From positions 1-64,000 of the forward strand of contig NZ_AZRK01000042.1 in the NCBI RefSeq assembly GCF_002895485.1: a stretch of 64,000 nucleotides of DNA. The letters are read 5' to 3'. The position numbers and the translations under genes were made by a program. Each line of letters opens with the position of its first letter. Within the stretch, counting starts at the first letter, position 1. Below, piece after piece: positions 4,866 through 63,694 of the stretch. Source of the stretch: Petrotoga sp. 9PWA.NaAc.5.4 (GTDB taxonomy: Bacteria; Thermotogota; Thermotogae; Petrotogales; Petrotogaceae). The notes beneath the pieces are model-generated. The model did not search any database. It was not told the DNA's origin and worked only from the letters and a program-made list of their open reading frames with translations.

Positions 4866-6172
4866 TGTATGAGCTAAAGGGAGGCCTACCAGAAGACTTC
4901 AAAATGACAGAACTCGGACCACTACCAGAGGAGTGGGAAGTGGTGAAGCTGGGAGATGCCATAGAAGAATTAAAAGAAAAGAATAAAAGTAACGTGGATC
5001 TCAAAGTGTTTACTGTTTCAAATATGGAAGGTTTTGTTCTTTCTGATAGGTTTTTTGGAAAGCGAGTTTATAGCAAAGACACGGATAACTACAAAATAGT
5101 TCGGCAGGGTTATTTTGCCTATAATCCTTATAGGATCAATGTAGGCTCTATTGGACTGTTCAAGGAAATAATAGGGTTGGTTAGTCCTGCGTATGTGGTT
5201 TTTAAAGTCAAAAGAACAGATTGCTTGCATCCTGAATTTCTCTTTAGACTTTTGAAAAGTCCATTTTACATGTCTGAAATACAAAGAATTGCGATGTCTA
5301 GAGGAAGCGTGAGAAGAAGTTTATCCTATAGAGATTTATCGGACTTCAAAATTCCTCTTCCTCCTCTTTCTGAGCAGGAAAAAATTGCCGCTGTTCTCTC
5401 CGCTGTTCAAGAGGCAAAAGAGAAAACAGAGGCAGTGATAAGAGCCACCAAGGAATTCAAAAAATCGATGATGAGCTACCTCTTCACCTATGGTCCTGTG
5501 GCACTACCGGATGCAGAAAATGTACCACTCAAGGAGACAGAAGTAGGTATGATACCGGAGGAGTGGGAAGTGGTAAGGCTGGGAGATGTTGCTAATAAAT
5601 CATATAGTGGAGGTACTCCCTCTACATCAAAAGAAGAATATTGGAATGGCAGCATACCTTGGACTACATCAGCAATAATCGGAGAAGAGGACGTATTTCT
5701 TGATAAATTTCAAAAGACAATTACCAAAAGTGGATTAGAATCTTCTTCAACGAAGATTACACCTAGGAATACTCTTTTAGTTGGAACTCGTGTGGGCGTA
5801 GGAAAGGCTGTTATTACTAGATTAGATGTTGCCATAAATCAAGATCTTACGGCTATTGAACTTAACACACAACGCATGTTACCTGTGTTTATAGCATACT
5901 TTTTTAAAATAGAAGGTATTCAAAAATGGTTTGAAAACAATAAGCGGGGGGCGACTATCAAAGGAATACCGAGAAAAGATCTGCTGAACATTTTAATTCC
6001 TCTTCCTCCTCTCCCCGTTCAACAAAAGATTGCCTCGATTCTATCTGCTATCGACCGGAAGATTGAAGCAGAGGAGGATAAAAAGAAAGCCCTGGAGGAC
6101 TTGTTTAAGACTCTTTTGCATAACCTTATGACTGCTAAGATAAGAGTCAATAACCTGGAGGTGGGAGCATGA
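4865..6172 (+). CDS. hsdS: Type I restriction-modification specificity subunit HsdS
   Basis: Two target-recognition half-domains are arranged in tandem. Each opens with a near-identical block (PLPEEWEVVKLGD near residue 18 and MIPEEWEVVRLGD near residue 229). Each closes with a conserved helical spacer (PLPPLSEQEKIAAVLSA and PLPPLPVQQKIASILSA). This symmetry is diagnostic of HsdS, which sets the bipartite DNA target. The two recognition domains differ, so the target should be asymmetric. The gene overlaps hsdM by one base and hsdR by four (ATGA). Confidence 0.93.
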   Translation: MYELKGGLPEDFKMTELGPLPEEWEVVKLGDAIEELKEKNKSNVDLKVFTVSNMEGFVLSDRFFGKRVYSKDTDNYKIVRQGYFAYNPYRINVGSIGLFKEIIGLVSPAYVVFKVKRTDCLHPEFLFRLLKSPFYMSEIQRIAMSRGSVRRSLSYRDLSDFKIPLPPLSEQEKIAAVLSAVQEAKEKTEAVIRATKEFKKSMMSYLFTYGPVALPDAENVPLKETEVGMIPEEWEVVRLGDVANKSYSGGTPSTSKEEYWNGSIPWTTSAIIGEEDVFLDKFQKTITKSGLESSSTKITPRNTLLVGTRVGVGKAVITRLDVAINQDLTAIELNTQRMLPVFIAYFFKIEGIQKWFENNKRGATIKGIPRKDLLNILIPLPPLPVQQKIASILSAIDRKIEAEEDKKKALEDLFKTLLHNLMTAKIRVNNLEVGA

Positions 6173-15575: not shown

Positions 15576-15614
15576 GTTTTTATCCTCCAAGTGTAAAAAT
15601 TTTAATCAAAGGCT

Positions 15615-15895
15615 TTTTTCTTTTAAGGTACTCGGTACTTTATATTGAAAAAGGGAGGGGGGCTTCGCCCTGGACCCGTTTTAAATTCAAAAACTTTTTT
15701 CAAAATCTTTATTTCTAAAGTCAATGATATTTTTTAAGGTACTCGGTACTTTACACTGAAAAAGGGATGGGGCTTCGCCCTGGACCCTTTTAAAATTCAA
15801 AAGCTTTATTTCTAAAGTCAATAATATTTTTTGAGGTAGTCGGTACTTTATACTGAGAAGAAAAGGAGAGGACTTCGCCCTGGACCCTTTTAAAA
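15615..15895 (-). repeat. Tandem array of three half-copies of the intergenic repeat
   Basis: Three units with a period of about 100-110 bases each contain GGCTTCGCCCTGGACCC (GACTTCGCCC in the third), a TTTCTAAAGT end and a GGTACTCGGTAC-type segment. Hairpin starts are at about 15661, 15771 and 15871. Read on the minus strand they match the left half of the 200-bp element seen elsewhere. The array starts directly at the stop codon of the permease gene and fills the gap to nagA. Confidence 0.75.
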
Positions 15896-16726
15896 TTAGC
15901 GATTTAATTTAGGATCCAAGACGTCTCTTAACCCATCTCCAAGGATATTTACACTTAATACGATAACTGCAATCACCAAACCTGGAAATAATGTTACCCA
16001 AGGAGCTACCATAATGAAATTAGTACCTTGACCTACAAGATTTCCTAAGGTTGCTTCAGGTGGTGGAACTCCTAAACCAAGGAATCCTAAAGATGCCTCC
16101 GTCAATATGGCTGTGGAAAAGTTCATGGTGAAACTAACTATAAATATTGATAGTATATTGGGAAAAATAACAGAAATCATTATTCCTAAATCACTTTTTC
16201 CTAAAGCTCTTGAGGCTTTTACATAATTTGATTCTTTAATAGAAATGGTTGAGCTTCTTATTGTTCTAGCGAAGATTGGAATATATATTATACCTATTGC
16301 GATAATTAAATTAATCATATTAGTTCCAAATAATGCTACAATAAACAAAGCTAATACTAACGAAGGAAATGCGAAAAAAGCATCTATTATTCTTGAAATT
16401 ATTTGATCTATTATACCTCCATAATAACCAGCTAAGATTCCTAAAAAAGTACCTATTATTGAAGCTATAATTATTGAGTTTAAAGCTATTAGCAAGCTAT
16501 TTTGAATTCCGTAAATACATCTTGAAAAAATGTCTCTACCAAATTGATCTGTACCAAAAATATGTTCGCGAGTTGGAGGATTTAAAATATATTTAGAATT
16601 CATTTCGTTTGGAGGAAATGGGGCGAACAGTTTTGGGAAAAAAGATATAAATATAAACAAAAATATTATAAATGCGCTTATTAAATTTAGTTTGTTTTTG
16701 CTAAAATTTTTTAAAAATCTTTTCAT
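15896..16726 (-). CDS. Oligopeptide-type ABC transporter permease (DppC/OppC family)
   Basis: This 276-residue inner-membrane permease has an N-terminal OppC region, the characteristic HIFGTDQFGRDIFSRCIYG segment near residue 55, and about six membrane helices. The ATPase-contact EAA loop ASRALGKSDLGIM lies near residue 176. It starts 12 bases after the DppB-type gene, so the two form a heterodimeric channel. The ATPase subunits normally following are absent from the window; another locus must supply them. Confidence 0.88.
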   Translation of the reverse strand: MKRFLKNFSKNKLNLISAFIIFLFIFISFFPKLFAPFPPNEMNSKYILNPPTREHIFGTDQFGRDIFSRCIYGIQNSLLIALNSIIIASIIGTFLGILAGYYGGIIDQIISRIIDAFFAFPSLVLALFIVALFGTNMINLIIAIGIIYIPIFARTIRSSTISIKESNYVKASRALGKSDLGIMISVIFPNILSIFIVSFTMNFSTAILTEASLGFLGLGVPPPEATLGNLVGQGTNFIMVAPWVTLFPGLVIAVIVLSVNILGDGLRDVLDPKLNR

Positions 16727-17709: not shown

Positions 17710-19218
17710 TTATTTATTTAACCAAGTTTCTCTCAAGAAAATTAAGCTTTCATTTGCCAAAGGTGTAAATCCTTCAACATAGTTTTGACCAGCATAAATT
17801 ATATTTGGAGAGTATAAAAAAAGAATAGGAGATTCTTTAACTAAAATTTTTTGTAATTGATTATATATTTGAATTCTCTTTGAAACATCTATCTCTGTTC
17901 TTCCATCCTGTAAAAGTTTGTCTACTATAGGATTTGAATATAAAAATACATTAGTTGATCCACCAGAATGAAAAGTTCTATAAAATTGGATATCAGGATC
18001 TATAGAACCAGAATTAAGGGAAACAAAAGCATCAAAGTCGCTATTTCTCCATTTGCTTATGAAAATTCCCCATTCTACCAAATCAATATTAACTTTAACA
18101 TTAATTTTTGCTAATTGTGATTGTATTACTTGAGCAATTTTATCAAGACTATATCTATTTGAGACTACTAAATCAAATTCAAAACCATTAGGATACCCAT
18201 TGTCAGATAGAATTTTTTTAGCTTTTTCTATATTATATTCATATTCTTCAAAACTGCTTGGAGGTAATGCCCAGGGTTTCAAAGTTGGATTTAAAGGTCC
18301 TGTTATTGAACCTTCACCAAAAGCTACCATATTAATTATTTCTTCTCTGTTTATAGCTAAGCTTAAAGCACTTCGAATTGATGGATTGGTAAAAGGTTCT
18401 CTTGTAGTATTATATCCTAACAAATAATAACTTAAAGATGGTTTTTTAAATGTTTTATAATTATTAGTTGGTAAGCTTCTTAGTGTTAAGGGTTCTTTTA
18501 CTTCGATTAAATCAACATCTTTATTTCTTAAAGCAGTGGCTCGCGATATTTCTTCAGGAATTATTCGAAAAACTATTTTGTCTAAATAAGGTTGTTCAGA
18601 AATAAAGTAATTATTATTTTTATTTAAGGTAATATGGTTTCCTGTCATATATTGATATAAATAAAAAGGACCTGTGCCGTTGGTTTCTAATTGTAGATTG
18701 TGTCCTGAGGTTACAAATTTTTTTGAAACAATTGCGCTGTTAACGCTTGCAAAGTTAGGTAGTAAAGAATTAACCATAGGAACTTTTAATTTAAATTGAA
18801 TTTTGTTTGGCCCTACAATACTTATGCTTTCAACTTCAACATAATAAGTAGCTGCTGGAGATCCTACATCTTTGTCTCTTATCCTTTCAAAAGAAAAGAT
18901 AATGTCATCTAATGTTAGTTTATCTCCGTTGTGAAAATAAACGTTGTCTCTTATAGTAAATATTATAGTATATGGATCAGGGATCTCATATTTTTCTGCG
19001 ATATTTGGTACTAAATTCATGTTTTCATCATATTTTAATAGTCCGTCATAAATATTTTCTAAAATTCTAAAAGATGAAAAAGCAGTTACTAAATGAGGAT
19101 CTAAACCTATAGGTTCCGTTTCAATTCCGATTTGTAAGGTACCACCTGACTTTTGTGAAAAACCAAAAGCTCCAAATAATAGTGTGATCATTAAGATCAC
19201 AAAAAATACTTTTTTCAT
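17710..19218 (-). CDS. Extracellular solute-binding protein, family 5 (oligopeptide type)
   Basis: This 502-residue protein has an N-terminal secretion signal (hydrophobic residues 4-20, ending FGFSQKSGG). Family-5 blocks follow: LDPHLVTAFSSFRILENIYD near residue 38, then DNVYFHNGDKLTLDDIIFSFERI and the ALSLAINREEII motif. It captures peptides or oligosaccharides outside the membrane and delivers them to the two permeases. ATG 19218 follows a clear AGGAGGT. Family-5 proteins in Thermotogota often bind sugars, so the ligand is open. There is no Cys for lipid anchoring after the signal. Confidence 0.9.
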   Translation of the reverse strand: MKKVFFVILMITLLFGAFGFSQKSGGTLQIGIETEPIGLDPHLVTAFSSFRILENIYDGLLKYDENMNLVPNIAEKYEIPDPYTIIFTIRDNVYFHNGDKLTLDDIIFSFERIRDKDVGSPAATYYVEVESISIVGPNKIQFKLKVPMVNSLLPNFASVNSAIVSKKFVTSGHNLQLETNGTGPFYLYQYMTGNHITLNKNNNYFISEQPYLDKIVFRIIPEEISRATALRNKDVDLIEVKEPLTLRSLPTNNYKTFKKPSLSYYLLGYNTTREPFTNPSIRSALSLAINREEIINMVAFGEGSITGPLNPTLKPWALPPSSFEEYEYNIEKAKKILSDNGYPNGFEFDLVVSNRYSLDKIAQVIQSQLAKINVKVNIDLVEWGIFISKWRNSDFDAFVSLNSGSIDPDIQFYRTFHSGGSTNVFLYSNPIVDKLLQDGRTEIDVSKRIQIYNQLQKILVKESPILFLYSPNIIYAGQNYVEGFTPLANESLIFLRETWLNK

Positions 19219-19248
19219 ACCAACTACCTCCTAATGTAATATTTTTTA

Positions 19249-20030
19249 CTCCTTTTAGAAATTCCAAAATCTTTATTATATGTATATTTTAGCGTTGATT
19301 CTTTTAAAAAATATCTCCCCCCTGGGCCCATTTTAAATTCAAAATCTTTTTTCAAGAACTTTATTTCTAAAGTCAATAATATTTTTAGGTACTCGGTACC
19401 TTATACTGAAAAAGGGTATGGCTATGCCCTGGACCCATTTTAAATTCAAAACCTCGTTTTTATAAAATCTCTGTTTCTAAAGTGTCTATCTAATCCTTAC
19501 AATATATGAATTTTTTAATTCTTTTGGTACATGTAGCAAAGAAAAGGGGTAGAGGGCTCCGCCCTGGACCCATTTTAAAATTCAAAACCTCGTTTTTATA
19601 AAATCTCTGTTTCTAAAAGTGTCTATCTAATCCTTACAATATATGAATTTTTTAATTCTTTTGGTACATGTAGCAAAGAAAAGGGGTAGAGGGCTCCGTC
19701 CTGGACCCATTTTAAAATTCAAAACCTCGTTTTTATAAAATCTCTGTTTCTAAAAGTGTCTATCTAATCCTTACAATATATGAATTTTTTAATTCTTTTG
19801 GTACATGTAGCAAAGAAAAGGGGTAGAGGGCTCCGCCCTGGACCCATTTTAAAATTCAAAACCTCGTTTTTATAAAATCTCTGTTTCTAAAGTGTCTATC
19901 TAATCCTTACAATATATGATTTTTTTAACTCTTTTGGTACTTGCAACCAAGGAAGCAGAAAGAGGGCTCCGCCCTGGACCCGTTTTAAAATTCAAAATGC
20001 TTACTTTCTGAAACGCTTCATTTTTAGAGT
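19249..20030 (-). repeat. Tandem array of the left half of the intergenic repeat, about six units
   Basis: Five hairpin cores (GGCTCCGCCCTGGACCC or close variants) begin at about 19420, 19555, 19692, 19829 and 19965, a period of 135-137 bases. The three middle units are nearly identical, including ATTCTTTTGGTACATGTAGC. A sixth, shorter unit (19249-19373) carries both inverted-repeat ends. All read on the minus strand, the direction of ilvN and the binding-protein gene. The array fills the 826-base gap between those genes. It is not a CRISPR array: there are no distinct spacers. Confidence 0.85.
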
Positions 20031-20044
20031 CACTATTTTTATTA

Positions 20045-20530
20045 TTAAGAGACGCTTAATTCTCTATCAAGAGCAATTATTCCTGTTCTTACAATTTCTT
20101 TTATTCCAAAATCTTTTAATATTTCTATAAAAGCAGTTATTTTGTTTTCATCTCCAGTAACCTCTACTGTAACAGTTTCTATAGAAAAATCTACAATTTT
20201 ACCTCTAAAGACGTCTACAACTTGAATTACTTGGCTTCTTTGATTTTTATTGCAATTTACTTTTATCAAAGCCATATCTCTTTCTACCATATTTGTTTGA
20301 TTCAGATCGGTGATTTTTATTACATCAATTAGTTTGTATAACTGTTTTTTTACCTGTTCAATAGTATCGTCATTACCTTCAACTACAATGGTCATTCTTG
20401 AAAATTCAGGTTTATCTGTTTCTCCAACATTTAAACTGAGAATATTGAAGTTTCTTCTACTAAATAATCCAGATATTCTTGCTAAAACTGCAGGCTGATT
20501 AGATACCGTTACTGATAAAATATGTCTCAT
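20045..20530 (-). CDS. ilvN: Acetolactate synthase small (regulatory) subunit
   Basis: The IlvN/IlvH subunit confers valine feedback control on acetolactate synthase. The N-terminal ACT domain (residues 1-75) shows MRHILSVTVSNQPAVLARIS and GLFSRRNFNI. The C-terminal ACT-like domain ends GIIALDRE, typical of the family. Its 161 residues are normal. It starts ten bases after ilvB with a GAGGAGGT site and is the last cistron of the pheA-gdhA-ilvD-ilvB-ilvN set. Confidence 0.93.
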   Translation of the reverse strand: MRHILSVTVSNQPAVLARISGLFSRRNFNILSLNVGETDKPEFSRMTIVVEGNDDTIEQVKKQLYKLIDVIKITDLNQTNMVERDMALIKVNCNKNQRSQVIQVVDVFRGKIVDFSIETVTVEVTGDENKITAFIEILKDFGIKEIVRTGIIALDRELSVS

Positions 20531-26661: not shown

Positions 26662-26784
26662 ATGAATTTGAAGGATAATTGTTTTTTTATAAATACTAAT
26701 GTTATTTCTAATGAAAATAATAATAGGAGGCGCCAATGTAGCCGGTGGTTCATAAGCACCGGTACGTTGGTGCTTATGAGATAG
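26662..26784 (+). CDS. Arginine-rich leader peptide of the arg operon
   Basis: This 40-codon open frame starts at ATG 26662 behind GGGAG (26645-26649) and ends at TAG 26782. The peptide begins MNLKDNCFFINTNVISNENN. Codons 22-24 are AGG AGG CGC, three consecutive arginines, followed by QCS, a CGG arginine, and a final arginine at codon 40. Such G+C-rich arginine codons stand out in this A+T-rich genome. The arginine run ends two bases before the 5' arm of the antiterminator helix. Position, composition and the operon downstream all fit a classical attenuation leader. The spacing of the ribosome-binding site (12 bases) is a little long. Confidence 0.75.
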   Translation: MNLKDNCFFINTNVISNENNNRRRQCSRWFISTGTLVLMR

Positions 26785-26852
26785 GAATTAAAGAAATTCC
26801 TATCGATTTAAAATCACACGGCTACATCTAAATTAGATGTAGCCGTTTTTTT
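26736..26852 (+). promoter_or_regulatory. Transcription attenuator (three-way-junction antiterminator versus terminator)
   Basis: Helix P1 pairs ATGTAGCCG (26736-26744) with CGGCTACAT (26819-26827); GTG/CAC extends it past one bulged A. It encloses P2 (CATAAGCACC 26751-26760 with GGTGCTTATG 26769-26778) and P3 (GATAGGAATT 26780-26789 with AATTCCTATC 26795-26804). The 3' arm of P1 is also the 5' arm of the terminator, so the two states exclude each other. P2 and the start of P3 are overlapped by the last codons and stop of the leader peptide. Confidence 0.8.
26819..26852 (+). terminator. Intrinsic terminator of the arg leader
   Basis: CGGCTACATCT (26819-26829), loop AAATT, and AGATGTAGCCG (26835-26845) form an 11-bp perfect stem followed by seven T residues. 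It lies about 175 bases upstream of argJ and would stop leader transcripts unless P1 forms. Confidence 0.9.
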
Positions 26853-26871
26853 ATTACTTATGAACTTAGTA

Positions 26872-26996
26872 ACTTTAGAAAGAGAGATTTTCTGAAAAAT
26901 GAGTTTTTAGATTTAAAACAGGTTCGTGGCGGAGCTCCATTCTCTTTTTCTTAGCTACAGATAGCATAGAATATAAGTTTAATAAATTTCTAAAGT
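26872..26996 (+). repeat. Intergenic TIR element, shortened copy, before argJ
   Basis: The copy starts ACTTTAGAAA at 26872 and ends ATTTCTAAAGT at 26986-26996. It contains GGCGGAGCTCC and TTAGCTACAGATAGC, variants of the two core hairpins. It is about 125 bp against 200 bp for full copies. It lies between the arg attenuator and argJ. Confidence 0.75.
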
Positions 26997-27027
26997 AAGT
27001 ATAAAAAATCTTAATAGGAGGAGAACT

Positions 27028-33663: not shown

Positions 33664-34905
33664 ATGGAAAAAGAAAAAGTTGTGTTGGCATATTCGGGAG
33701 GTTTAGATACGTCTGTTATTATTCCTTGGTTAAAAGAAAACTATAATTTTGAAATTATTGCTGCTTGCATTGATGTTGGTCAAGGTAAAGAAATTGAAAG
33801 TATTAAGGAAAAAGCACTTTTAAGTGGTGCGAGCAAGGCCTATGTAGAAAATGTTAAAGAGGAATTTGTTAAAGACTATATTTTCCCTACTTTAAAAGCA
33901 GGAGCCGTATATGAAGGGAAGTATCTTTTAGGTACCTCTTTTGCACGTCCACTTATAGCAAAGAAATTGGTTGAAATAGCTCATAAAGAGGATGCAAAAT
34001 TTATTGCACATGGGTGTACAGGAAAAGGCAACGATCAAGTAAGATTTGAAGTTTCCATAAAAGCGCTTGATCCAACTATACAAATAATTGCTCCATGGAG
34101 AATTTGGAACATAAAATCACGAGAAGAAGAAATAAAATATGCTATTGAAAAAGGAATACCGGTTAATGTCACTAAAGAGAAAATATATAGTGTTGACAGA
34201 AACTTATGGCATGTGAGTCATGAGGGTGGAGATCTTGAAAATCCTTTGAATGAGCCAAAAATAGATTTGTTCGATATTATAACTCCTCCCGAAAAAGCTC
34301 CTGATGTCCCTGAATATATAACTATTGAATTTAAATCCGGAATTCCTGTTAAAATAAATGGTGAATTTTTAAATCCTGTTGAATTGATAGAAAAAGCAAA
34401 TGAAATAGCGGCAAAAAATGGAATAGGAATAATTGATATGATAGAAAATAGATTAGTAGGAATGAAATCAAGAGGTGTATACGAAACTCCAGGAGGAACA
34501 ATATTGTATTATGCTCATAAGGAGTTAGAAACATTAGTATTGGATAAAGATACCATGAGATTTAAAGAACTTATTTCTCAGAAATATGCGGATCTTGTAT
34601 ATAATGGCCTTTGGTTTTCTCAGTTGAAAGAAGCGTTAGATGCTTTTGTAGATGAAACACAGAAAGTAGTTACGGGTATTGTTAAGTTAAAACTTTACAA
34701 AGGAAATATAATAACAGCAGGTTTGCAATCACCTTATTCTTTGTATAATGAGGATTTAGCAACTTTTGGAGAAGATAAAATATATGATCAAAAAGATGCG
34801 GAAGGATTCATAAATTTATTTGGATTACCTCTAAAAGTTAGAGCTCATCAAGTAAATAAATTAAAAATGGAAGCTAACCAATGTGAAGTTAAAATAGAAC
34901 TTTAA
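33664..34905 (+). CDS. argG: Argininosuccinate synthase
   Basis: It joins citrulline and aspartate with ATP. The ATP-pyrophosphatase loop is [16 protein letters not shown] near residue 8. Further family blocks are [32 protein letters not shown], and [16 protein letters not shown] near 180. Its 413 residues are normal. It follows carB by 55 bases with a GAGGTGA site. The 3' side carries a partial and then a full copy of the TIR element before argH. Confidence 0.96.
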
Positions 34906-34972
34906 AAATGAGAATTTTCTAAAAAAAGGTTTTGAATTTTAAAAGGTTTTAGGAGTACAAGTTAAAATAGGT

Positions 34973-37567: not shown

Positions 37568-37674
37568 TGTTTATAAATAAGAATTTATGTATTTTAAATT
37601 AGATATGTTGAAAAAAATTGTTAATTAATGTATAATTATAAAAATTTTATTGTTAAAGTAACAATTTTATTAGG

Positions 37675-37762
37675 TACTTTAGAAATGATAATTTTCTAAA
37701 AATAAACTTTTGAATTTAAAACTAAAAGATTGGTAAAACTTAGGTTTTGGAATTTCTAAAAA
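37675..37762 (+). repeat. Intergenic TIR element, internally deleted copy
   Basis: The left end ACTTTAGAAATGATAATTTT (37675) and right end ATTTCTAAA (from 37752) enclose only about 65 bases. The hairpin core and the internal ribosome site are lost. It is a short derivative of the 200-bp element. Confidence 0.65.
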
Positions 37763-37780
37763 CAGTAAATTTTATAAAAA

Positions 37781-37830
37781 GGAGGGAGGGTACACTTCTT
37801 ATCGTTTAGTAATAGAAGTGTACAAAAAAT
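37781..37830 (+). promoter_or_regulatory. Perfect hairpin between ribosome-binding site and start codon
   Basis: GGAGGGAGG (37781-37789) is followed by GTACACTTCT (37790-37799), a 14-base loop, and AGAAGTGTAC (37814-37823), then seven bases and ATG 37831. The linear distance from the ribosome site to the ATG is about 40 bases, far too long, but formation of the 10-bp stem brings them within about seven single-stranded bases. No alternative in-frame start exists because a TAG lies at 37813. Confidence 0.75.
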
Positions 37831-38967
37831 ATGCAAAACATATATATTGTAGATACAACTTTAAGAGATGGCGAACAAACAGCAGGTGTAGTTTTCGCTA
37901 ATGAAGAGAAAGTTCAAATTGCAAAGATGCTTGCTGAACTGGGAGTATACCAAATTGAAGCTGGTATACCAACTATGGGTGGAGATGAAAAGGAAGCAAT
38001 AAAAAAGATAGTTAAGCTCGATTTAGGAGTTAGTGTTATGGGTTGGAACAGAGCTGTTATAAGCGATATAGAGGATTCTTTAGATTGTGGAGTAGATGCA
38101 GTTGCTATTTCTATTTCAACATCTGATATTCATATAAAACATAAACTTAAAAAGGATAGAGATTGGGTTCTTAACAGTATGGTTTCAGCTACAAAGTTTG
38201 CAAAAAAACACGGACTTTACGTTTCTGTTAATGCAGAAGATGCTTCCAGAAGTGATATGAAATTTTTGATTAAATTTGCCAAAGAAGCAAAAGAAGCAGG
38301 TGCCGATAGATTGAGATATTGTGATACTGTAGGTATGATGGAGCCTTTTATGATATACGAACAAGTCAAAACTATAATAGAAGAAGTTGGCATAAATGTG
38401 GAAATGCATACACATAATGATTTTGGATTAGCAACTGCTAACGCATTAGCAGGTATAAAAGCAGGAGCAAAATATGTTGGTGTAACTGTGAATGGATTGG
38501 GAGAAAGGGCTGGAAATGCTGCATTAGAAGAGGTTGTTATGGCATTAAAATATATATATAAATTTGATTTAGGTATAAAAACCAATCTATTAAAGGAAAT
38601 TTGTGAATACGTTGCAGCAGCTTCAGGAAGACCCTTACCTGTTTCTAAAACTATTGTGGGACATAATGTTTTTACACATGAATCTGGGATTCATACAGAT
38701 GGTGTTCTTAAAAATTCTCAAACATACGAATCTTTTAGTCCTGAAGAAGTAGGTTTGGAAAGGCAAATATTAATAGGAAAGCATTCTGGGAAAAATGCTA
38801 TTATTGCTAAATTTGAAGAATACGACATTAACTTAACTCAAGAAGAAGCCGAGGAAATTTTAAAGCGTGTGAGAGCACTTTCAGTCCAGCTGAAAAGGAC
38901 ACTTTTTGACAAAGAGTTAATTTATTTATACAATGAATTGAAGGGGGAAAGAGTAAAAGATGCATGA
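37831..38967 (+). CDS. Homocitrate synthase-type (NifV-like) acyltransferase
   Basis: This member of the LeuA/homocitrate synthase/NifV family condenses acetyl-CoA with a 2-oxo acid. The N-terminal motif VDTTLRDGEQTAGVVF, the metal ligands HTHNDFGLATANALAG near residue 190 and GLGERAGNAALEE near 221 are intact. The IEAGIPTMGGDE sequence is of the NifV/homocitrate type, not the LeuA type. It lacks the LeuA C-terminal regulatory domain (378 residues). With the following genes it could build 2-oxoadipate (lysine route) or, if it accepts oxaloacetate, citrate. Translation appears to depend on the hairpin just upstream. Confidence 0.8.
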   Translation: MQNIYIVDTTLRDGEQTAGVVFANEEKVQIAKMLAELGVYQIEAGIPTMGGDEKEAIKKIVKLDLGVSVMGWNRAVISDIEDSLDCGVDAVAISISTSDIHIKHKLKKDRDWVLNSMVSATKFAKKHGLYVSVNAEDASRSDMKFLIKFAKEAKEAGADRLRYCDTVGMMEPFMIYEQVKTIIEEVGINVEMHTHNDFGLATANALAGIKAGAKYVGVTVNGLGERAGNAALEEVVMALKYIYKFDLGIKTNLLKEICEYVAAASGRPLPVSKTIVGHNVFTHESGIHTDGVLKNSQTYESFSPEEVGLERQILIGKHSGKNAIIAKFEEYDINLTQEEAEEILKRVRALSVQLKRTLFDKELIYLYNELKGERVKDA

Positions 38968-40239: not shown

Positions 40240-40441
40240 TCATAGAAAAAGAGAGGTTTTTGAAAAAATAATGTTTTGAATTTATATCGGGTTCAGTGTG
40301 GAGCCCTTCTTTTTCTTTAGTTATAAGTAGCGAAAAAGTTAAAGAAATTCATATTCTGTGAAGATTAGAGTTGAAAAGGTATTTTTGAAAAAACTAAGAT
40401 TTAAAACATTTATAGAATCGGAGTTTCATAATTTCTAAAGT
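40240..40441 (+). repeat. Intergenic TIR element, copy with worn left end
   Basis: The right end ATTTCTAAAGT is at 40431-40441; the left end is degenerate. The core is GGGTTCAGTGTGGAGCCC, weakened against the consensus, and the mini-ORF region TTGAAAAAACTAAG is kept. It lies 21 bases before another full copy in the same orientation. Confidence 0.75.
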
Positions 40442-40461
40442 GAGTAAAACTTAATTTAGGG

Positions 40462-40663
40462 ACTTTAGAAATGAGGATTTTTTAAAAATAAGCTTTTGAA
40501 TTTATAATGGGTTCAGAGCGGAGCCCTCCCCTCTCTCCTTAGCTACACGTAGCGAAAAAGTTAAAGAAATTCATATTCTGTGAAGATTAGAGTTGAGGAG
40601 GTATTTTTGAAAAAACTAAGATTCAAAACATTTATAGAATATGAGATTCATAATTTCTAAAGT
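40462..40663 (+). repeat. Intergenic TIR element, full 202-bp copy
   Basis: Perfect 11-bp ends: ACTTTAGAAAT at 40462 and ATTTCTAAAGT at 40653-40663. It contains GGGTTCAGAGCGGAGCCC, TTAGCTACACGTAGCGAA and the internal site GAGGAGGTATTTTTG with a 17-codon frame. It can serve as reference copy for the family. It ends 36 bases upstream of the dehydratase small-subunit gene. Confidence 0.9.
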
Positions 40664-40699
40664 GAGTAAAACTTAATTTTTGAGGAGGAAACAGATAAT

Positions 40700-48387: not shown

Positions 48388-48622
48388 AAATTTTCCCCCT
48401 CAGAAAGTTCTAAGATATAAAAATTATATAATAAAAAATTAAAAAAGTCAATATATAAATTAAAATTTTCAAAAAAATAAAGTATAAAGATTTAAAAAAA
48501 TTAAAACTATCCATATTTTTTTTACATCTAAATCAAATAAATTTTTTTTCTAATAATTGTTTAAAATTGATATAATCAATGATATAATATGAAAAGTCTT
48601 GATTAATTTAGTAGGGGCAGTG
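48388..48622. other. A+T-rich divergent gap
   Basis: Between the DUF2089 gene and the repeat before the amylase gene. It holds A/T runs and TATAAT-like words on both strands but no promoter pair I would defend. Confidence 0.3.
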
Positions 48623-48824
48623 ACTTTAGGAATAAGGAATTTTATAGAAATAAGGTTTTAATTTTAGTTGGGTTTAGGGCAGAGTTCTTTTTCTTCTTAT
48701 TCGATAAAAATACCGAAGAAGTTAAAAAAAATAGTCGCTTGGTTAAAATTAGAATAGTAGAGATATTTTTGAAAAAGCTAAAATTTTAAACATTGATAAA
48801 ATTAAGTTTCAGAGTTTCTAAAGT
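48623..48824 (+). repeat. Intergenic TIR element, diverged full-length copy
   Basis: About 202 bp from ACTTTAGGAAT (48623) to GTTTCTAAAGT (48814-48824). The core has decayed to GGGTTTAGGGCAGAGTTC, so the hairpin is lost, and the mini-ORF is stopped after six codons. It precedes the amylase gene by 30 bases. Confidence 0.7.
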
Positions 48825-48854
48825 GATTAAATTAAAATTGTAAGGGGGTTTGCT

Positions 48855-56484: not shown

Positions 56485-56580
56485 TGCAGAGTCATCTCTT
56501 TCTGTTTGAATAAAAGTACCGAATATGTTAAAGAATTTCATATTTATTCCGGTAAAAATTGTGTGTTTGAGGAGGACAAT
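56485..56580 (+). repeat. Decayed TIR-element core forming the pyrH leader
   Basis: GAGTCATCTCTTTC, AAAAGTACCGAATATGTTAA and AGAATTTCATATT line up in order with the element core (GAGCCCTCCTCTCTC, AAGTAGCGAAAAAGTTAA, AGAAATTCATATT). The stretch ends at GAGGAGG directly before the pyrH ATG, where the element has its own GAGGAGG and mini-ORF start. No intact terminal repeats remain. Confidence 0.45.
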
Positions 56581-57282: not shown

Positions 57283-57296
57283 TAAAAATTATATGT

Positions 57297-57363
57297 GCTT
57301 CAGAAATGAAGATTTTCCGAAAATAAGTTTTTGGATTTATAAGGTTTTTATAATTTCTAAAGT
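57297..57363 (+). repeat. Intergenic TIR element, 67-bp minimal copy
   Basis: CTTCAGAAATGAAGATTTTC at the left and ATTTCTAAAGT (57353-57363) at the right, with the whole middle deleted. It sits 35 bases before eno. Confidence 0.65.
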
Positions 57364-57371
57364 GAGTATAA

Positions 57372-60779: not shown

Positions 60780-60811
60780 ATTTTTTCCTCCTATATTTTT
60801 AATTTATACTC

Positions 60812-61011
60812 ACTTTAGAAATTCCAAAACTTAAGTTTTGTCAATATTTTAGTTTTAAATTTTTTCAAAAATACCTCCATAGCTTTAATCTTTACTAATT
60901 CTTAATTCTTTTAACTTTTTCGGTACTTGTACCGAGAGAGGGAAGGGGGCTCCGCCCTGGACCCATTTTAAATTCAAAAGCTTATTTTAAAAAAAAATTC
61001 ATTTCTAAAGT
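60812..61011 (-). repeat. Intergenic TIR element, full 200-bp copy, minus orientation
   Basis: Perfect ends ACTTTAGAAAT (60812) and ATTTCTAAAGT (61001-61011). The core GGGCTCCGCCCTGGACCC and the internal site ATGGAGGTATTTTTG (minus strand) with a 17-codon frame are preserved. It lies upstream of the minus-strand three-gene set and points the same way as those genes. Confidence 0.85.
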
Positions 61012-61221
61012 TCCTATTTTAATTTTTTGTTCGATTTATGAATCCTGAAACTTCCTTTTACACTTATGATTATTATACCACAATTTAATTCTAAGCCATA
61101 TATCTTCTTTAATACTTGAACGAATTTGTTTTATCATAACAAAAAAAACACTACACAAAAACAAAGTATGATAAAATAATATAAAGTAATCAAATAATAG
61201 CAAACTATAAGAAGGTGCATT
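61012..61221. other. Leader region of the debranching-enzyme gene
   Basis: It contains an exact 10-bp inverted repeat TTTTATCATA (61129-61138) and TATGATAAAA (61167-61176), separated by 28 bases, a possible operator. It also contains the motif AATACTTGAACGAA (61111), shared with 58842. No convincing -10/-35 pair was picked. Confidence 0.35.
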
Positions 61222-63438: not shown

Positions 63439-63461
63439 ATTGAATCGACTTTGAATTAGGA

Positions 63462-63661
63462 ACTTTAGAAATGAAGATTTTCTAAAAATAAGCATTTGAA
63501 TTTAAAACGGGTCCAGGGCGGAGCCCTCCCCTCTCTTTCACTACACGTAGCGAAAAAGTTAAAAAAATTCAGAATTAGTAAGGATTAGAACTGAGGAGGT
63601 ATTTTGTAAAAAAATTAATTCTAAAACATATATATAATAAGGATTTTGAAATTTCTAAAGT
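63462..63661 (+). repeat. Intergenic TIR element, full 200-bp copy
   Basis: Ends ACTTTAGAAAT (63462) and ATTTCTAAAGT (63651-63661). The core is GGGTCCAGGGCGGAGCCC and CTACACGTAGCG; the internal GAGGAGG is present but the mini-ORF is stopped at its second codon. It precedes the phosphoglucomutase gene by 33 bases. Confidence 0.88.
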
Positions 63662-63694
63662 AATTAATAATTTATACAAAGGAGGATTCCTAAA

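Follow-up and report, generated by a model that had tools for sequence, protein, structure and literature searches.

Between an ilvN-like gene (20045-20530) and an ABC-transporter substrate-binding gene (start at 19218), both on the minus strand and named from sequence reading, the analyzed stretch of 64 kb (hereafter, the window) contains a tandem repeat. All three lie on the minus strand, and the repeat would be transcribed, if at all, together with the two genes. TRF detected a tandem repeat at 19426-19997 with a period of 137, 4.2 copies, and 95% matches. A repeat profile of 230 model positions, derived from five window copies, resolved the region into five hairpin units and a sixth, core-deleted copy providing the right end (minus strand). 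The original prediction of five hairpin-bearing units with a 135-137-base period is upheld, with units of about 136 bp. A G+C-rich hairpin is present in five units, and three of these five are 99-100% identical, in agreement with the three near-identical units that had been claimed. The 11-mer GCCCTGGACCC, with up to two mismatches, has 21 matches against 1.96 expected.

The array belongs to a small parasitic DNA element, of which it is an expanded copy; the other copies in the window are listed in Table 1. A three-unit array with a different period, also part of the prediction, was recovered at 15607-15897 with a start-to-start spacing of about 100-110. At the tandem pair at 40250-40668, the duplication AACTTAATTT is found between the copies and again before GGAGG, as if one Shine-Dalgarno site had been hit twice. 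The argH genes of genomes G000 and G003 both have the element in front.

Table 1. Positions of the element, its parts, and its neighboring signals in the 64-kb window.
Feature	Position	Strand	Basis
Whole tandem element, 789 bp, leader between ilvN and transporter substrate-binding gene	19247..20035	-	
Left terminal inverted repeat of unit 1, TAGTGACTCTAAAAAT (family consensus TAGGNACTTTAGAAAT)	20020..20035	-	
Unit 1, model 2-134	19899..20035	-	profile
Unit 2, model 2-134	19763..19898	-	profile
Unit 3, model 3-134	19626..19761	-	profile
Unit 4, model 3-134	19489..19624	-	profile
Unit 5, model 2-110, hairpin flanks differ	19382..19488	-	profile
Last copy, core-deleted (model 4-68 joined to 139 onward), array's only right end	19247..19376	-	profile
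Right terminal inverted repeat, AATTTCTAAAAGGAGTA	19247..19263	-	
GGAGG (Shine-Dalgarno) of transporter gene, 15 nt past right end; start codon 19218	19227..19231	-	
Second array, three units, without recognizable right end	15607..15897	-	profile
Internally deleted copy, 3' of arg leader terminator	26867..27001	+	
Partial copy directly upstream of the argH-like-gene copy	34897..34953	+	
Complete copy 5' of argH-like gene, target duplication AAGTTAAAA	34968..35179	+	profile and comparison with relatives
Core-deleted copy, only both ends remain	37671..37767	+	profile
Two tandem copies (second, complete: 40457-40668)	40250..40668	+	profile
Complete copy between promoter-like stretch (conserved in four relatives) and Shine-Dalgarno sequence	48618..48829	+	profile
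Core remnant	56486..56547	+	profile
Core-deleted copy, only both ends remain, 5' of enolase-like gene	57292..57368	+	
Complete single copy, 210 bp, GGAGG at +15	60807..61016	-	profile
Complete single copy, 210 bp, GGAGG at +14	63457..63666	+	profile

Three features of the window outside the element were also observed. A conserved leader at 26690-26850 (+), 5' of an argJ-like gene (start 27028), contains hairpins, along with a T-run terminator. It is also present in G003, G008, G009, and G012, has only chance-level Rfam matches, and is a candidate for an unlisted attenuator or riboswitch. At 37777-37833 (+), a hairpin lies between GGAGG and the ATG of a citramalate/isopropylmalate-synthase-like gene, and its pairing is kept despite sequence changes in five of five genomes; by reading, the order of GGAGG, hairpin, and ATG is similar at loci L171 and L186. 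Repeats of about 55-60 bp with 76-78% identity, spaced 630-645 bp apart, occur at 4899-6049, as might come from a gene whose halves resemble each other or from a pair of paralogous domains.

The element family and its probable partner IS

Complete copies are noncoding, about 210 bp long, and bounded by TAGGNACTTTAGAAAT and AATTTCTAAAGTGAGTA, with terminal inverted repeats of 16 bp. The flanks of 92 elements (72 from this genome and 20 from fetched stretches of relatives) had a mean similarity of 5.90, against 3.16 after permutation (sd 0.16, maximum 3.57 of 200). The direct repeats outside the ends, together with a flank score above all permutations, identify these flanks as target-site duplications. 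They are 7-13 bp long with a mode of 10 in 30 clear cases, and mostly 8-12 bp. Judged by these sequence features, the repeat is a non-autonomous transposable element (MITE). A clean empty site with a single copy of the target was not found among the relatives compared, all of which belong to other genera (the host has a genus to itself, in the same family as G003 and G012).

The profile was scanned over the window and 68 loci (313 kb including overlaps, duplicates removed), which gave 103 distinct element places in this genome, a lower bound set by the stretches examined. One full copy used as query gave 92 matches genome-wide. At least two hits were present at 70 of the 103 places and at least three at 45, the maximum being ten. 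At eight loci of three to five hits the duplications enclose the entire array, which indicates a single insertion that either grew from within or was moved as a whole.

An autonomous IS with the same ends, as expected of the partner of a MITE, is present in the same genome (L175:1159-2782, 1624 bp). It has the MITE-type ends TACCCACTTTAGAAAT and ATTTCTAAAGTGACTA, a transposase gene of 418 residues, and a perfect 10-bp duplication, and the GGAGG of an adenine phosphoribosyltransferase-like gene stands at +15 from its right end. A search with two transposase families found one DDE_Tnp_1 transposase gene in this genome; broken IS copies are also present. The transposase passes the Pfam gathering thresholds of DDE_Tnp_1 (PF01609; 34.3 vs. 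23 bits) and DUF772 (PF05598; 37.5 vs. 23.1 bits). Its nearest NCBIfam family is IS1182 (NF033551), at 55.9 bits against a cut-off of 270 and therefore outside the family proper; IS5_4 scored 40.8 bits against a cut-off of 140. We describe the enzyme as IS1182/IS5-like, with DUF772 and DDE_Tnp_1. A sequence search of the PDB with the transposase returned no match, and a structure prediction made from three sequences only had a mean pLDDT of 41.

Among 103 Thermotogota genomes searched, 13 have relatives of the transposase, the majority of them broken, and G008 carries one 78% identical copy that is open throughout. None were found in 18 genomes sampled through loci or in the plasmids and viral contigs searched; in another phylum, relatives of 31-34% identity were found in 5 of 398 genomes. 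An IS256-type partner was rejected, as PF00872 is absent from this genome (G000) and its single copy in G003 lacks the MITE ends. The shared ends suggest that the MITE is probably mobilized in trans by the co-resident DDE-transposase IS.

IS1272 belongs to the IS1182 family. In the available part of its description, it resembles the Petrotoga IS in having a distantly similar transposase family and non-random targets; it differs in replacing inverted repeats with no target duplication, while the Petrotoga IS makes a duplication beside GGAGG (PMC5678879). Replacement of the IS1272 type is not what we found in six IS copies from four genomes, namely those with two recognizable ends and a duplication: each has a duplication of 8-12 bp. 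A parallel in composition is MITEAba12, with 16-bp terminal inverted repeats, 9-bp target duplications, and mobilization by the co-resident ISAba12; however, as far as its account was available, it is described with no orientation preference, no trend in the sequence of the target duplication, and no tandem arrays (PMC6382973).

Position relative to the Shine-Dalgarno sequence

A recognizable right end with enough flank was available at 86 of the 103 places (17 were dropped). GGAGG is located 12-17 nt past the right end at 70 of these 86, compared with 0.5% of other positions up to 400 nt away, and the exact motif is missing there at the other 16. CCTCC was found on the outer side of none of 57 left ends, which indicates that the orientation of insertion is fixed. 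A start codon follows 24-34 nt past the right end in 77 of 84 copies with a called same-strand gene nearby; of the remaining ten of the 94 in this count, most appear on reading to be gene-calling misses, but no gene begins past the insertion at L013 (minus strand). In G003, which is of a different genus, GGAGG is at +12 to +17 in 22 of 29.

Among the 30 clear MITE duplications, GGAGG follows after exactly 5 nt in 24 and after 4-6 nt in 29, and it follows after exactly 5 nt in six of six IS duplications. This fixed spacing, common to the MITE and the IS, suggests that both insert directly 5' of Shine-Dalgarno sequences. The element would then sit between the promoter or upstream gene and the ribosome-binding site and become part of the 5' leader. 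At the 48.6-kb copy, a promoter-like upstream stretch is common to four relatives without the element, which places this insertion between promoter and Shine-Dalgarno sequence. In the proposed mechanism, AT-rich DNA immediately ahead of a Shine-Dalgarno sequence would be the target of MITE and IS alike; the duplication would stop 5 nt short of GGAGG, which would always be faced by one and the same end of the element. We infer that GGAGG is recognized by the transposase itself.

Two further observations concern the same kind of site. An IS of another family in G044, with a transposase 37% identical and a different end sequence, also stops just before AGGAGG. The same Shine-Dalgarno region, ATTATAATTCAGGAGGTACAAGAGATG, is occupied by a broken IS in G012 (L179) and by a three-hit MITE array in G000 (L103).

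Could insertion be random, with selection retaining only the copies just upstream of a Shine-Dalgarno sequence, where they are least harmful? Leaders do tolerate insertions, and of the 81 copies for which the upstream gene was scored, 38 are at most 100 nt downstream of a same-strand gene. Nevertheless, selection could hardly fix an exact 5-nt spacing (24 of 30 and 6 of 6) or explain an orientation with 0 of 57 reversed, and the same spacing recurs at a GGAGG within the MITE that starts no known gene. We regard this explanation as highly improbable.

Very unlikely as well, though a little less so, is a reading of the repeat as regulatory RNA acting in cis in the 5' leader, an attenuator or stability element kept for its function, with arrays that tune expression. 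Its leader location, uniform orientation, and constant Shine-Dalgarno distance would fit such a role, as would one clearly covarying pair in the second hairpin (86-95; GC in 52, CG in 44, and CC in 25 of 150 units). However, a regulatory RNA would not account for target duplications or for an IS with the same ends, and the RNA evidence is otherwise against it. The original prediction that each unit carries a stem able to terminate or stabilize transcripts was not borne out: a terminator scan of the array region (hairpin plus T tract) found one site where 0.4 was expected (sd 0.7), so that the array does not qualify as an intrinsic terminator, and folding of the array gave a z-score of -0.54. 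In a sample of 150 dereplicated units and 68 complete copies, pairing in the main hairpin was at the level expected without coupling, with no covariation (RNAalifold, pair counts). An Rfam scan of the window returned two tRNAs alone, with no RNA-family match for the repeat at the gathering score. Orthologous genes compared in related genera are mostly without the element. Most simply, the element is read as a parasite whose landing place does fairly little harm, its presence presumably being neutral for the host gene.

Mycobacterial MIRU are mobile repeats located at gene starts inside operons, in the sense of the gene and with tandem copy-number variation. Their target is the overlapping stop/start codon, not the Shine-Dalgarno sequence, and we know of no IS partner for them. 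Insertions of the ISAjo2 group (IS1202 family) resemble those of the Petrotoga element in having a single orientation, a constant distance of 5 bp to a recognized site, and a target duplication; in what was accessible of its description, the site is the XerC side of dif/pdif, the duplication is 5 bp, and the transposase is of another group (PMC10132070). A search of mostly open-access literature returned no Shine-Dalgarno-targeting IS and no account of this repeat.

Origin and growth of the arrays

Only the part from the left end through the core is indeed repeated, as had been claimed, and its extent can be given more exactly: model 2-134 of 230 in the usual unit. The downstream unit starts within the first nine model positions in 160 of 170 adjacent pairs. 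For 155 of these pairs (15 with the acceptor beyond 9 or the donor before 90 were left out), the upstream-side end is at 128-134 in 105 junctions from 47 arrays (fetched copies, this genome), at 110-118 in 27 junctions from 13 arrays, at 142-155 in eight, and at 181 in one; in 14 it is at 211-218, i.e., whole copies are joined.

The commonest boundary coincides with a feature of the element. The MITE has an internal GGAGG at model 140-144, which is intact in 32 of 75 complete copies and then always 5 nt past position 134; it is degenerate in 26 of the remaining 43, and nothing similar is present in 17. Position 134 is therefore the cut site that the target rule predicts. A leader peptide translated from the internal GGAGG, which is followed by TTG in some copies, was considered as a separate possibility and rejected on sequence reading, as the start codon is not conserved. 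At L030, a copy with both ends is nested in another, with AGGATTAGA on each side and then GCTAA and GGAGG. At L002, a nested copy has the duplicate AAGGATTAAA with a 2-nt offset on the right. These two are the only nested intermediates that keep the tail.

The unit end 5 nt before the internal GGAGG and the nested copies with duplications suggest that the most likely beginning of an array is the insertion of a copy into this decoy, with recombination responsible for its later expansion. A new copy would insert 5 nt before the GGAGG of the resident, whose left part (2-134) would stay upstream. One of the two adjacent right halves would then be lost, leaving a unit and a complete copy; this collapse is the step for which we saw no direct example. 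Recombination between units would subsequently lengthen the array.

Unequal crossing-over or replication slippage between end repeats had been suggested as the source of the array, and for expansion this stands. Neighboring units of the array at 19247-20035 are 99% identical, and mean unit identity is 0.86 within arrays vs. 0.79 between arrays; later growth is local. The nearest relative lies in the same array for 92 of 176 units of multi-unit arrays and elsewhere for the other 84, which means that many units are old. Some G003 arrays also have quite different breakpoints, with direct repeats at the flanks. As the founding event of the common unit, slippage is not supported, since the boundary is the predicted transposase cut and two nested loci carry duplications.

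A history of slippage or unequal exchange between short direct repeats throughout, with no nested insertion, is accordingly unlikely. It would draw on the near-identity of adjacent units, on the slippage-type arrays of G003, and on ATTAGAACT near model 130, which on reading is shortly similar to the left end. It would leave unexplained why the downstream start is so constant while the upstream end varies, why the commonest boundary is the cut position of the target, and why nested copies with duplications exist. Decoy self-insertion followed by recombination would account for the main class only: the 27 junctions at 110-118 and the nine at 142-181 fall outside the decoy rule, and for those at 110-118, as for the G003 arrays, ordinary slippage or a different founding event is required. 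In one G003 array (L167:2465-2942), the direct repeat AATAAATATTTTCTAAA delimits a unit of 97 bp, and the same core has been amplified there in the manner of slippage.

Elements with comparable modularity are known. BOX of Streptococcus pneumoniae comprises short intergenic MITE-like repeats in more than 100 copies, with terminal inverted repeats and target duplications (PMC3049150). Its central module likewise varies in tandem number and would form hairpins if transcribed (PMC3049150). In the portion of the account at hand, BOX is over-represented between convergent genes and no Shine-Dalgarno targeting is described (PMC3049150); the Petrotoga MITE is set apart by its mostly fixed distance before the Shine-Dalgarno sequence and by a repeated unit consisting of left end plus core. 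Kinds already known thus include MITEs partnered by an IS, modular repeats in tandem (BOX), and fixed-distance IS targets (ISAjo2).

From the sequence comparisons, we put at roughly 0.83 the probability that the explanation as a whole applies, i.e., an IS-mobilized MITE, Shine-Dalgarno targeting, decoy self-insertion, and array growth by recombination. It is also quite probable that a clade of Thermotogota IS and its MITEs insert with near single-nucleotide precision 5 nt upstream of GGAGG, in one orientation and nearly always in a 5' leader, and that the decoy within the MITE leads to arrays by self-insertion. This would account for a class of leader arrays that look regulatory at first sight. 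The target rule is simple and testable (AT-rich duplication, N5, GGAGG); it raises the question of whether the transposase recognizes the DNA itself or is guided by RNA or ribosomes, and it may offer a tool for placing sequences in 5' leaders. If true, a transposon that finds its target by the ribosome-binding site could insert at almost any gene with no damage to it, leaving promoter, Shine-Dalgarno sequence, and coding region all intact. Bacterial transposons would in this way have a safe-haven strategy of general use, with a logic akin to the targeting of tRNA genes or dif sites.
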